Shown here one piece after another: positions 7,521-36,022 of a DNA stretch of 39,055 bases. A program made the position numbers and the translations under genes. The notes beneath the pieces are model-generated. The model saw only the letters and a list, made by a program, of their open reading frames with translations. It was not told the origin of the DNA and searched no databases. The number at the start of each line of letters is the position of its first letter. The stretch's first letter is position 1. Source of the DNA: an uncultured Lachnospiraceae bacterium (GTDB taxonomy: Bacteria > Bacillota > Clostridia > Lachnospirales > Lachnospiraceae); assembly GCA_902801515.1 (NCBI GenBank), contig CADCII010000023.1, positions 1-39,055 on the forward strand. The letters are read 5' to 3'.

Positions 7521-8465
7521 TCAGTTGAACAGGACTATATCATCCTTCGGCGGCTCCGTGCTCTTAAGGTGTTTTGCATGGAGCACCGGACCCTCTCCGT
7601 TATATTCGGGAACAAACTCATACTGCACCTCGGCAGTGACTTCGATCCACTGCTTCTGCCTCAGTTTGTCCGTGTGCCTGGATCGGCAGATAAAGCCGAT
7701 GAACCGGATATCATTGACGCAGCAGGTCATTGCATTGCGCCCCGGAATAAAGCTGTTCGGCTGGAATCCATTCGGGATCATGACCTTCCCTTTAAAATGA
7801 ACGGTCTTTCCTTCATACCGGTCTTTATTCTCCATCGCATCCAGATACCAGAGCCCATACTCCTCATCCGGAATCTCGATCGGATCCGCATTCAGGTCGA
7901 AAGGCGGCTGTGCCTTGCCGATATCGATCTGCTGGCCTTCACTGTCCTCAAACGCAGTGACCGCCTGGGTGTTCACTGCCTTGACAGTCCTGCGGAACTT
8001 CTGAAGATCCATATCTGTCGTGCAGCGGTTGAAGATGACCAGCTCAGTATCCATGAAGATGTTGCTCATCATCTGGCGCATATTCTGCAGGTACACCTCA
8101 AAGGTAGAGCCGTCGACCAGCGTGATGATCTGGGCAAGTTCCCACCGCTTTGCCATGGGACTGGATGTAAACTTCATCGCGTCCCAGGTGCCGTTGAACT
8201 CAACAAACACTCTCCTGGGCTTATGCCTGCGGTGGAGAATATCCAGTTTTTCAGGAGCCAGGTCTTCCTCACTGTCGATCTGCTCGATATAGATATTGTG
8301 CCGGCTCAGCTGCGCCTCATCGTATTCCTCTTCGCCCTCTTCACACAGAAGGACCAGAGTCTTCTCGCCGTCTGCAAAATCCGGGCTGTCCAGAACTTCT
8401 TTTATGAAGGTGGTCTTGCCGCTCTCAAGAAAGCCGGTGATCACATATACAGGTACTTCCAACAT
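7521..8465 (-). CDS. CobW/P47K-type GTPase with C-terminal DUF1980-like domain
   Basis: 314 aa from ATG 8465 (MLEVPVYVITGFLESGKTT); a TTG at 8474 is an alternative. The G3E-family P-loop GFLESGKT is at the N terminus. The usual CxCC metal site of CobW/ZNG1 proteins is absent. From about residue 215 (YEGKTVHFKGKVMIPNG) the chain resembles the C-terminal domain of YcgQ/DUF1980 proteins, including the MTCCVNDIRFIGFICR stretch. This suggests metal-related membrane or chaperone work, perhaps zinc, paired with the His-rich CobW protein just upstream. No Shine-Dalgarno is visible; a highly structured 192-nt element ends 13 bp before the ATG. Fused architecture and exact metal are inference. Confidence 0.75.
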   Translation of the reverse strand: MLEVPVYVITGFLESGKTTFIKEVLDSPDFADGEKTLVLLCEEGEEEYDEAQLSRHNIYIEQIDSEEDLAPEKLDILHRRHKPRRVFVEFNGTWDAMKFTSSPMAKRWELAQIITLVDGSTFEVYLQNMRQMMSNIFMDTELVIFNRCTTDMDLQKFRRTVKAVNTQAVTAFEDSEGQQIDIGKAQPPFDLNADPIEIPDEEYGLWYLDAMENKDRYEGKTVHFKGKVMIPNGFQPNSFIPGRNAMTCCVNDIRFIGFICRSRHTDKLRQKQWIEVTAEVQYEFVPEYNGEGPVLHAKHLKSTEPPKDDIVLFN

Positions 8466-8478
8466 GTTATTCAAGTGT

Positions 8479-8670
8479 TGCGATCTGCAGGGCAGAGGAA
8501 AACAGGACCGGCTGCCGCATGCGCAGCATGAGAGCAGACGGGCATAGTTTTCCTTATGTCCTGCAAAGCAGGAACCTCCCCTTCAGCCGGGAACAGGAGC
8601 ATCGAAGATGCGGCATACGCACGAAGTGCGGATGGTTCACGGATTGAAGGTGAGGAGTCTGCAGATCGCA
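8479..8670 (-). other. 192-nt four-way-junction structured element between the two CobW genes
   Basis: A perfect 12-bp inverted repeat (TGCGATCTGCAG at 8659-8670 and its complement at 8479-8490, minus-strand sense) encloses three separate helices. P2 pairs 8645-8655 with 8575-8585 (10/11) and continues inward, ending in two mini-hairpins (GCAC-TTC-GTGC and GCATC-TTC-GATGC). P3 is TCCTGC-TTT-GCAGGA (8559-8573). P4 pairs AGGAAAAC with GTTTTCCT (8496-8503/8547-8554) and continues with CCG/CGG, CTGC/GCAG and CATGC/GCATG pairs. Linkers are 3, 1, 4 and 5 nt. It fills nearly the whole gap between the two genes and ends beside the downstream start. It could be a cis-regulatory RNA, a small structured RNA, or a non-autonomous mobile palindrome. 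No known riboswitch consensus was recognised. Confidence 0.7.
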
Positions 8671-8697
8671 TTCTCCTTCCTACTTAATTAAAATATC

Positions 8698-9957
8698 TCA
8701 CAGTCCGAACAGTTCCTGGATCCTGTCTTCCTTCAGGCCTGCTCCGATAACAACGATACGTCCGGTATAGTCTGCAGCACCGGTGCGGATCTCAGTTTCT
8801 TCCGGAACCATGTCGAAATGGATCCATGTGCCGTCCTCACGCGGAACCATGCCCTTGGAGCGAAGAATGAATCCATACTCATCTTCCGTGGAATCCGCAA
8901 GAGTCTTCAGGATGCTTCTGATCTCATCATCCGTGTATGTCTTCGGTGACTCAGCTCCCCAGCTCTGGAAGATCTCATCCGCGTCATGTCCGCCATGGTG
9001 ATGATGGTGATGGTGATGATGATCATGGGAGTGATAGATTACTGTTCCGTTTTCATCCGCCTCATGTTCATGCTCATGGTGGTGATGCTCATGCTCATCT
9101 TCGTCATCGTCGTCATGATGGTGGTGATGATGGTGCTCATGCTCGTCCTCGTCATCATCGTCATGATGGTGGTGATGATGGTGCTCATGCTCATCCTCGT
9201 CATCATCGTCGTGATGGTGGTGATGGTGGTGATGATGGTGTTCATGCTCGTCCTCGTCATCATCGTCATGATGGTGGTGATGATGCTCGTCTTCGTCATC
9301 ATCGTCATCATGGTGATGGTGATGTTCTTCTTCCTCTGCCAGAAGAAGGTCTGCCAGAGAGACGGACTGCACCATAGCATCGTGGATCGTCTTTCCGCTC
9401 AGTTCATCCCACGGCGTGGTAATGATCGTCGCTTCCGGATTCTTCTCACGGATCATCGCGATCGCTTCATCGATCTTCTCCTTCGTTGCATTCTGAGTTC
9501 TGGAGAGGATGATCGTGCCTGCGCTCTCGACCTGGTTGTTGTAGAACTCACCAAAGTTCTTCATATACATCTTGACTTTCTTGACGTCTGCCACTGTGAC
9601 CAGTGATCCGATCTCAAGATCGCAGTCCTTACCCACACGCTCCACTGCATCGCGGATATCGGACAGTTTGCCAACGCCTGAAGGTTCGATGATGATATGA
9701 TCCGGGTGGAACTGCTCCACAACCTTCTTCAGTGCTTCGGCAAAATCGCCGACCAGGCTGCAGCAGATGCAGCCGGAGTTCATCTCTGTAATATTGATGC
9801 CGGCTTCCTTCAGGAACCCGCCGTCAATTCCAATCTCGCCAAATTCATTTTCGATCAGAACGACCTTCTGCCCTGCAAAAACGTCTGTGATCAGTTTCTT
9901 GATCAGAGTAGTCTTTCCTGCTCCGAGAAACCCTGAGATAATGTCAATCTTTGCCAT
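8698..9957 (-). CDS. CobW/ZNG1-family GTPase with His/Asp-rich metal-binding tract
   Basis: 419 aa from MAKIDIISGFLGAGKTT (ATG 9957, AAGGAAGGG seven bases upstream); a longer frame to 10038 crosses the promoter. P-loop GFLGAGKT (9-16), CxCC metal site C63-I-C65-C66 in the switch region, and the ESAGTIILSRTQNATKE guanine-specificity region identify a metallochaperone GTPase of the COG0523 group. Residues about 208-322 are a low-complexity tract with ~57 His plus many Asp/Glu, built on a 16-residue repeat. This tract likely stores or captures zinc, nickel or cobalt. The C-terminal domain (EDEYGFILRSKGMVPREDGTWIHFDMVPEE...) is the usual CobW_C. The gene heads a unit with the second GTPase downstream. 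Confidence 0.9.
   Translation of the reverse strand: MAKIDIISGFLGAGKTTLIKKLITDVFAGQKVVLIENEFGEIGIDGGFLKEAGINITEMNSGCICCSLVGDFAEALKKVVEQFHPDHIIIEPSGVGKLSDIRDAVERVGKDCDLEIGSLVTVADVKKVKMYMKNFGEFYNNQVESAGTIILSRTQNATKEKIDEAIAMIREKNPEATIITTPWDELSGKTIHDAMVQSVSLADLLLAEEEEHHHHHDDDDDEDEHHHHHHDDDDEDEHEHHHHHHHHHHDDDDEDEHEHHHHHHHDDDDEDEHEHHHHHHHDDDDEDEHEHHHHEHEHEADENGTVIYHSHDHHHHHHHHHGGHDADEIFQSWGAESPKTYTDDEIRSILKTLADSTEDEYGFILRSKGMVPREDGTWIHFDMVPEETEIRTGAADYTGRIVVIGAGLKEDRIQELFGL
8994..9336 (-). repeat. In-frame tandem repeats coding the His/Asp-rich tract
   Basis: The coding DNA repeats with a period near 48 bp (unit DDDDEDEHEHHHHHHH), best preserved between about 9090 and 9300, with shorter and longer His runs between units. 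On the plus strand it reads as CATCAT-like gatgatggtg strings, which generate long spurious Met/Val-rich frames. Such DNA is prone to slippage, so copy number probably varies between strains. Confidence 0.85.
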
Positions 9958-10047
9958 TCTGTATCCCTTCCTTCTGTAAAATAATAGAAACAGAAACCTG
10001 AAAACGCTGATCTCTGTAATTAAATTGAACGCAATCAATCTGCGAAT

Positions 10048-31642: not shown

Positions 31643-32278
31643 TCAGGCCTGTCCGCCAGGTCCGCTCCACGGCATCTGCTCCATGTTATCCTGCGGCCTC
31701 TGATTCATATCACCCTGTGGTGCCTGACCATTCATCTGCGGCATCTGCCCCATATCACCCTGTGGTGCCTGACCATTCATCTGCGGCATTTGCCCCATAT
31801 CATTCCGATGCTGTCTCCTGCCGCCACTGGGCATCTGTCCCATGTTGTTCTGCGGCATCTGTCCATTTCCTTGCGGCATCTGTCCGTTTCCCTGCGGCAT
31901 CCGGTCATTGCTTCTGCCTGCCGGATTACAGTTTCCTGACGGAATGTCCATATTTCCCGGAGGGTTCATCCTGCCGTTCTCATCCATCTCAGGCTGAACC
32001 GGCTTTCCGTCTTCATCTGTCTCAGGCTGTACCGGCTTTCCATCTTCATCCGTCTCAGGCTGTACCAGCTTTCCATCTTCATCCGTCTCAGGCTGTGCCG
32101 GCTTAAAAGCCCCGTTCGGAGCTCCGGATTTCTTCGCTTCTTCCGCGGTATCTTCCGTCGTCTCCCCGGCAATGGTCAGTGTCGTTGCCGTTTCCTCAGC
32201 ATATGCTGCCATACCGTTCATTGACATCAGCATCGACGCTGACAGGATCCCTGCAAGGATCATACTTCTTTTCTTCAT
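31643..32278 (-). CDS. Secreted low-complexity repeat protein, Gln/Met/Pro/Gly-rich
   Basis: 211 aa; family not recognised. A signal peptide (about 1-27, MKKRSMILAGILSASMLMSMNGMAAYA) is followed by a Thr/Glu-rich segment, four copies of an 11-residue acidic repeat (QPETDEDGKPV), and a C-terminal region of GQMPQ-type motifs including two 15-residue copies of MGQMPQMNGQAPQGD. No Cys-rich fold, no LPXTG and no membrane anchor at the C terminus. About 20 Met in MxxM-like spacing could bind soft metals or oxidants; equally it may be a disordered wall-associated protein. A GAGGAGG site precedes ATG 32278. It lies between the two-component genes and htrA, with its own promoter carrying four phased half-sites. 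Confidence 0.75.
   Translation of the reverse strand: MKKRSMILAGILSASMLMSMNGMAAYAEETATTLTIAGETTEDTAEEAKKSGAPNGAFKPAQPETDEDGKLVQPETDEDGKPVQPETDEDGKPVQPEMDENGRMNPPGNMDIPSGNCNPAGRSNDRMPQGNGQMPQGNGQMPQNNMGQMPSGGRRQHRNDMGQMPQMNGQAPQGDMGQMPQMNGQAPQGDMNQRPQDNMEQMPWSGPGGQA
31706..31795 (-). repeat. Two 45-bp tandem units inside the secreted repeat protein
   Basis: Units 31706-31750 and 31751-31795 are nearly identical, each starting catatcaccctgtggtgcc on the plus strand. They code for 15-residue MGQMPQMNGQAPQGD copies. Confidence 0.85.
31989..32120 (-). repeat. Four 33-bp tandem units inside the secreted repeat protein
   Basis: The tcaggctg phrase recurs at 31989, 32022, 32055 and 32088, exactly 33 bp apart; the last unit decays toward 32120. 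They code for the 11-residue QPETDEDGKPV repeat. In-frame unit length suggests copy-number variation without frameshift. Confidence 0.85.
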
Positions 32279-35762: not shown

Positions 35763-35836
35763 CGATGCGTGGCTCAGTTTGGTAGAGCGCTGCGTTCGGG
35801 ACGCAGAGGCCGCTGGTTCAAATCCAGTCGCATCGA
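35763..35836 (+). tRNA. tRNA-Pro (anticodon CGG)
   Basis: 74 nt with a complete cloverleaf: acceptor CGATGCG/CGCATCG, D arm GCTC-GAGC, anticodon stem CTGCG/CGCAG with loop TTCGGGA (anticodon CGG), T arm GCTGG-TTCAAAT-CCAGT, discriminator A. CCA is not encoded. Its last ~26 nt are repeated 183 bp downstream. Confidence 0.95.
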
Positions 35837-35839
35837 TAC
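35811..35839 (+). repeat. Direct repeat copy 1: 3' end of tRNA-Pro (possible att site)
   Basis: 29 bp from the T arm through the tRNA end and six bases beyond. Identical to 35994-36022 except for one base (T versus A at position 23). Integrases commonly use tRNA 3' ends as attachment sites and leave such duplications. Confidence 0.75.
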
Positions 35840-35895: not shown

Positions 35896-36000
35896 ACCAG
35901 CGGCCTTCAGCAGCACGGGCGCCCGTTCGGGCGCAGAGGGCCCACGAGGTCCAGTGGACCTCGGGTTTGGGCCGACCGGAGCGGAGCGGAGAACGCTGGT
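35896..36000 (+). other. Structured GC-rich spacer between the tRNA-Pro repeats
   Basis: ACCAGCG (35896) pairs with CGCTGGT (ends 36000), enclosing GCGCCCG-tt-CGGGCGC and a GGCCCA...TGGGCC stem topped by GAGGTCC-agt-GGACCTC. A CGGAG triplet repeat (gGAGCGGAGCGGAG) follows. An 11-bp block (ACCAGCGGCCT) is also the inverted complement of the tRNA-Pro variable/T region (35807-35817). No ORF of interest. Probably tRNA-derived, rearranged DNA; function unknown. This is the only notable content of the 35837-36163 gap besides the hairpins listed. Confidence 0.55.
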
Positions 36001-36022
36001 TCAAATCCAGTCGCAACGATAC
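35994..36022 (+). repeat. Direct repeat copy 2: orphan tRNA 3' half
   Basis: Same 29 bp as 35811-35839 with one mismatch. No matching 5' acceptor (CGTTGCG) exists upstream, so this is a tRNA remnant and not a working gene. Confidence 0.75.

Follow-up and report, generated by a model that had tools for sequence, protein, structure and literature searches.

The gap between two CobW-type genes, cobW1 and cobW2, in a 39,055-nt stretch of DNA (hereafter the window) from an uncultured Lachnospiraceae bacterium holds a full-length, decayed copy of a ~195-bp MITE, a member of what is apparently an undescribed MITE family of gut and rumen bacteria. We consider it fairly probable that this element has been domesticated and acts as the looped-out spacer of a split ribosome-binding site of cobW2, of the type found in T4 genes 25 and 38. 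MITEs and split ribosome-binding sites are each known; what is new here is their proposed combination, and a MITE four-way junction that is conserved across genera.

The whole relic occupies positions 8477..8672 (+ strand), where covariance model R1 of the family (see below) aligns over its full length (model positions 1–195 of 195, 82.3 bits, E 8.6e-23). Its outer arms, P1 (8479..8490, +, TGCGATCTGCAG) and P1' (8659..8670, +, CTGCAGATCGCA), descend from the two terminal inverted repeats (TIRs) and form a perfect inverted repeat, complementary at 12 of 12 positions, just as an earlier note on this DNA had read the closing stem. The three helices that the note had drawn inside it, with linkers of 3, 1, 4 and 5 nt, are reproduced in the MFE structure of the cobW (−) strand, in which P1 closes around the branched arm P4 with its two terminal hairpins (8575..8655), the short hairpin P3, TCCTGC-AAA-GCAGGA (8559..8573), and the long arm P2 (8496..8554), of 81, 15 and 59 nt; these three arms are features of the cobW-strand fold and are given without a strand of their own. 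That fold has −89.2 kcal/mol (z −5.6), and none of 200 shuffles was as stable. The + strand of the element is more stable (−97.6 kcal/mol, z −6.5, 0 of 200 shuffles), with an MFE structure of two branches in which part of P1, P2 and P3 are merged; the mRNA of cobW2 carries the less stable strand, a point against a split ribosome-binding site. Rfam at the gathering score returned no family for the window element or for 13 loci with related copies, and at E up to 10 it gave two matches in the window, both to low-scoring eukaryotic lncRNA models. A scan of 8300–8900 for promoters and terminators gave 0 and 0.

Both neighbours of the element match PF02492, in agreement with the earlier description of two flanking CobW genes. 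The downstream one, cobW2 (7521..8465, −), has a CobW nucleotide-binding domain and a DUF1980_C C-terminus (TIGR03943 scored below its cut-off), and its start codon (8463..8465, −) lies 13 nt after P1 in the mRNA, which is the distance from stem end to start that the earlier note had given. The upstream one, cobW1 (8698..10038, −, as the longest ORF), is a CobW GTPase with a His/Asp-rich insert, and its true start is probably the internal ATG of MAKIDIISGF. Within this gene, positions 9005-9384 form a long His/Asp/Glu-rich repeat region, likely metal-binding. It had been claimed that the start of cobW2 lacks a Shine-Dalgarno (SD), and this holds for the 13 nt after the stem, where none is present; however, an SD, AAGGAGA (8672..8678, −), is found beyond the element, adjoining P1 on its 5' side in the mRNA.

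Intact copies of the family carry the TIR GTTACTATTCACRG and 8-bp target duplications. The ends of the window copy no longer match the intact TIR (they read GTTGCGATCTGCAG and AATGCGATCTGCAG), and its flanks show no visible target duplication. A DNA-level search covering 98 genomes, with the window's own among them, gave matches in 14: 12 belong to the window's genus, and the other two, from outside it, are marginal. Porcincola intestinalis is a member of this genus, as locus L107 of G004 and the named locus L123 share their contig coordinates. BLAST found one other copy in the window's own genome (C18:55206-55299), where the end motif was not found. The intact relatives have inverted ends TTACTATTCACRGC, mostly at a length near 193, and matches to the end motif on the two strands numbered 24 + 24 in G001, 23 + 35 in G015 and 8 + 20 in G012, compared with 0 for the reversed motif in these three genomes and one in G011. 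The two flanks matched each other at 7 or 8 of the 8 bases in 11 of 31 end pairs from the genus versus 0.3% in a mismatched-pair control, a denominator that retains about five false pairs (the 122–123-bp pairs of L025, L038, L039 and L040, plus L149). Seven of the genus pairs were exact at 8 bp and none at 4–7, 9 or 10 bp; the target duplications are therefore of 8 bp.

At the level of the family, 19 of the 397 Lachnospiraceae genomes sampled, from 18 of 334 genera, have the exact two-ended pattern, and the reversed control has no match. None of 196 genomes sampled from the class as a whole has it; six of these, the window's own among them, are of the same family. BLAST with one copy from the genus matched 15 genomes, again with the window's own among them, out of 250 from the family. 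From the 19 pattern-bearing genomes 40 copies were fetched, and flanks were alike at 7 or 8 of 8 bases in 18 of these 40 copies from other genera (a count without a control). No description of the element was found in the open-access full texts searched, and phage and plasmid records gave no match to one query copy (L208). One stretch appeared in a pattern scan of viral contigs, L182:7690-7881 (IMGVR_UViG_2882654883_000020), an intact copy with the 8-bp duplication TCATGTAC on a viral-classed contig, which could be host flank or a real passenger. Four sequences (L238 and L239 of G201, which are two of the 40 copies, and G295:C105 and G295:C113) have the same end motif and a similar length around a different interior, and at least one further MITE subfamily may use the same ends. 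In L054 / L153 (G014:C31), a copy from the genus, P4 is of other sequence and forms a similar branched palindrome, by eye as if the arms had been swapped as modules.

The four-way junction is a property of the family. A closing stem with three arms is found in the MFE structures of 35 of 38 same-type copies (L209, L219 and L220 have two branches), with arms mostly of 61–65, 11–28 and 72–86 nt, a few first arms of 49–58 or 68 nt, and a long-arm tip mostly near TCGTCGTGCTTGCACGTAAGA. The 81, 15 and 59 nt of the window are the family arms read on the other strand, and their order matches. An alignment of 28 copies chosen by eye left out near-duplicates and odd interiors and served also for the covariance model. 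Seven of its rows come from the genus and 21 from other genera, out of the 38 same-type copies there, and no cobW-locus copy is among them. Double changes occur in 26 of 41 consensus pairs, a count that excludes P4, which RNAalifold left unpaired; P3 covaries in the family. The cells of the consensus pairs can pair in 92.4% of cases and in 45% at most when slid, and the covariation score is 0.466 versus 0.169 in shuffles, with 0 of 500 shuffles reaching it. Besides the window, the model recovers the copies in G006 (E 5.5e-22), G011 (E 2e-9) and C18 (E 7.4e-21).

Bacterial MITEs such as MITEAba12, and the small intergenic palindromes of the ERIC/RU class, are short and non-coding, have TIRs, a target duplication and many intergenic copies, and are moved in trans. 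The present family resembles them in its short, non-coding sequence, inverted ends, target duplication and intergenic copies, and would differ from these named elements in that its covarying arms keep to a single four-way-junction layout in the window's genus and 17 others. The family is apparently uncatalogued across Lachnospiraceae, and the conservation of its folded interior from genus to genus hints at a use of the fold in mobility or in tolerance by the host.

The earlier note had looked to covariation as support for an RNA and to scattered copies with target duplications as evidence against a riboswitch; covariation was indeed found, yet so were the scattered copies. The stable multi-branch fold beside CobW genes had suggested a metal-sensing riboswitch class unrelated to transposons. 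This idea is now barely credible, given that the element belongs to a dispersed family with TIRs and 8-bp duplications, and that the copies lie at different places with no clear bias in orientation to the neighbouring ORFs (a longest-ORF heuristic placed an ORF on each side of 52 out of 55 copies, and in these the counts are +20/−32 for the 5' gene and +24/−28 for the 3' gene).

Sequence comparison suggests that the MITE was probably moved by an IS66-type transposase. IS66 elements typically make 8-bp duplications. Transposases of this type (PF03050) occur in 6 of 19 genomes of the genus and in 8 of the 19 MITE-bearing genomes, and none was found in the window's own genome. A set of 30 loci, some of them overlapping and two (L170 and L171) taken from a transposase search, contained 12 hits to the end motif at ≤2 mismatches, in 7 loci, versus 9.4 in shuffles, and single end hits are therefore near chance. 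The case for such a partner leans on L161 and L170, with one exact 12-mer end each, and on two PF03050 loci, L159 and L245, in which the transposase lies between inward-facing ends spaced 2293 and 2267 bp; these ends differ from the MITE TIR by 1–2 of 12 bases. L159 starts at a contig end, and L245 has no target duplication. L171 has one end with 1 mismatch. Unlike these loci the MITE has no transposase, and 23 of the 30 lack such an end at ≤2 mismatches, so the partner would be at most a subgroup. A candidate autonomous partner sought through exact TIR pairs was rejected: among the matches listed, the one inward pair more than 1 kb apart that was followed up (G015:C499) has between its ends an ORF that, judged by eye, does not look like a transposase, and a separate 135-bp copy accounts for one of the two ends.

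Orthologues of cobW2 were found in 15 of the 19 genomes of the genus, and in the cobW1–cobW2 spacer the model hits only G000, G006 and G011, with none in the other 12. For G009 it reports no element and for G018 no hit better than chance, and the states of these two were therefore read from alignment and position: when aligned with G011, G009 has a trimmed copy from which P4 has been lost, and G018 has a short hairpin only, at the same place, which we infer to be a remnant of the element. These five species make up one side of a branch with support of 100/99 under midpoint rooting. The three cobW copies come from one insertion, so we are dealing with one event and later drift. All five clade members have AGGAGA at the 5' edge of the insert, and in 8 of the 10 other cobW2 genomes a GGAG or GAGG lies no more than 20 nt from the ATG (the exceptions are G013 and G014), so the insert has split the SD from the ATG. 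The suggestion of a MITE-like palindrome that displaced the ribosome site was essentially right, with dispersed copies, TIRs, 8-bp duplications, a few transposase loci with like ends, and an insert between SD and ATG. Having no-element, full, trimmed and short-hairpin states in related species provides a natural experiment on initiation across a large structured insert, and one that bears also on how transposon palindromes become regulatory parts. Copies are present too on the other side of cobW2 in G010 and G001: L125:3950-4248 (G010, downstream of cobW2) is a partial and a full copy side by side, and at the same place in G001 a related arm sequence stands next to an N run.

The way in which ribosomes would reach the start codon from the displaced SD can be outlined as follows. 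A ~195-bp non-autonomous element would have inserted between the SD and ATG of cobW2 in the ancestor of the five species and would then have lost its TIR sequence and presumably its mobility too. In the mRNA, P1 would close and hold the SD, 207–208 nt away in the chain, at ~15–18 nt plus one helix from the ATG, and the fold would probably be kept because the loop-out lets cobW2 still be translated. The predicted centroid folds reduce SD–ATG distances of 207, 208 and 208 nt to 15, 18 and 15 nt plus one helix in G000, G006 and G011, and the 61 nt of G018 to a predicted 7 nt plus two helices. G009 fits more poorly, with a predicted 21 nt plus two helices and an SD that is mostly paired (probability unpaired 0.21). 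Two values argue against initiation across the loop-out, namely that the looped-out 15–18 nt is longer than the 9 and 6 nt of the two measured outgroups (G007 and G002), and that the predicted openness of the ATG is just 0.19–0.54 in the full copies. In phage T4, RNA structure between SD and AUG shortens the spacing from 27 to 11 nt in gene 25 and from 22 to 5 nt in gene 38, with mutational support (PMC3014915). The cobW2 case is alike in having a structure between SD and AUG that, by prediction, shortens the effective spacing; it differs in that the gene pair is bacterial and the spacer, a four-way junction of ~192 nt, comes from a transposon, with a predicted shortening from 207 to ~15 nt. 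The fuller course of events, in which the MITE was domesticated, its TIRs turned into a locus-specific stem by compensatory changes, P4 was kept as a regulatory or structural RNA and initiation proceeds across the four-way junction, we put at slightly less than an even chance.

A rival reading is that a small ORF runs through the element and couples translation from the SD to cobW2. In the window there is an ATG directly after GGAGA whose frame ends 5 nt before the cobW2 ATG, and G006 and G011 have other open frames running through the element; but these two lack the small-ORF ATG, the window frame stops 82 and 73 nt before their cobW2 ATG, and their own open frames have no start codon near the SD, all of which makes such coupling very improbable.

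The copies at the cobW locus carry marks of constraint. Relative to the family TIR, P1 in the window is changed on both sides at 5 of 14 positions and still paired there, with defects at the two outermost positions only, and the G006 stem has three double-changed paired positions and two defects near the outer end. Several rows of this TIR comparison are out of register through indels, and arm-to-arm scoring was used for comparison among copies. In the cobW copies of the three species the arm-to-arm score is ahead of the higher of the two arm-to-TIR scores by 7, 5 and 7; the lead is at most 3 in 28 other copies, of which about ten are informative, being decayed, with arm-to-arm scores of 5–10; in these ten, including the second copy of the same genome (L021), the margin is never above 1. 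The cobW2 gene itself is under purifying selection (dN/dS 0.04–0.07 in five clade pairs, rough values with synonymous sites near saturation), and its fourfold sites are 49–54% identical among the three species; the gene has thus been maintained with its SD on the far side of the insert. Identity among the three orthologous copies of the element is 42–83% in the P1 arms, 38–58% in the lower P2 stem, whose sequence drifts, and 57–93% in P3, and rises to 85–90% at the conserved tip of P2 and 86–92% in P4, the most conserved part (92–96% in its branched core). Against the fourfold rate, the P values for P4 in the three pairs are 2.9e-14, 7.5e-17 and 7e-12. Such conservation of P4 means selection or some copying; the other copies seen in these genomes are 72–79% identical, with no obvious source of P4 among them.

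The P1 pairing could also persist by DNA-level correction between the arms. The main rival is a decayed MITE without function, its palindrome kept paired through template switching at the DNA level, with translation of cobW2 either coupled to that of cobW1 or proceeding weakly in an SD-independent way. The family copies do resemble ordinary insertions between genes and have no clear bias in orientation, and one of them, L042, has a matching change in both arms. Wobble pairs are also rare (105 of 2889 and 74 of 2871 on the two strands), in keeping with upkeep of the palindrome at the DNA level. The same counts show only a weak bias in the GU strand test, for which L238 and L239 were left out for their other interior and the orientation of L218, L219 and L235 was corrected by eye. 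Of the 38 same-type copies, 37 fold better on the P2-first strand (mean 6.8 kcal/mol). Nevertheless, an element without function accounts poorly for the identity of P4 compared with that of the fourfold sites, for the AGGAGA kept in five of five species, and for the ten decayed copies elsewhere, the one in the same genome included, whose arms have gained nothing comparable over the TIR, and we regard it as rather unlikely. With constraint specific to this locus in the cobW copies, the element still likely acts in cis on the translation of cobW2.

P4 would then be kept for a role in cobW2 expression. Together with the tip of P2 it might bind a protein, a small RNA or a metal ligand as an exapted regulatory RNA acting on cobW2, which would be compatible with a split ribosome-binding site. 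That sequence is conserved in P4 and at the P2 tip but not in P1 or low in the P2 stem, and that both neighbours are CobW-type GTPases are in line with this proposal, which we nonetheless hold to be a minority possibility, since family copies occur elsewhere in both orientations, Rfam gives no match, and P4 is missing in two of the five species; its absence from G009 and G018 means that it is dispensable, which counts against the split-site reading as well.

Other features were recorded in the window. A tRNA-Pro(CGG) gene lies at 35763-35836, and positions 35986-36022, 183 bp downstream, are an 89% copy of the 37 bases at the tRNA 3' end (35803-35839), as seen at some integration sites. Four head-to-tail repeats with a 33-bp spacing are found at 31947-32104, overlapping an ORF of 211 aa.
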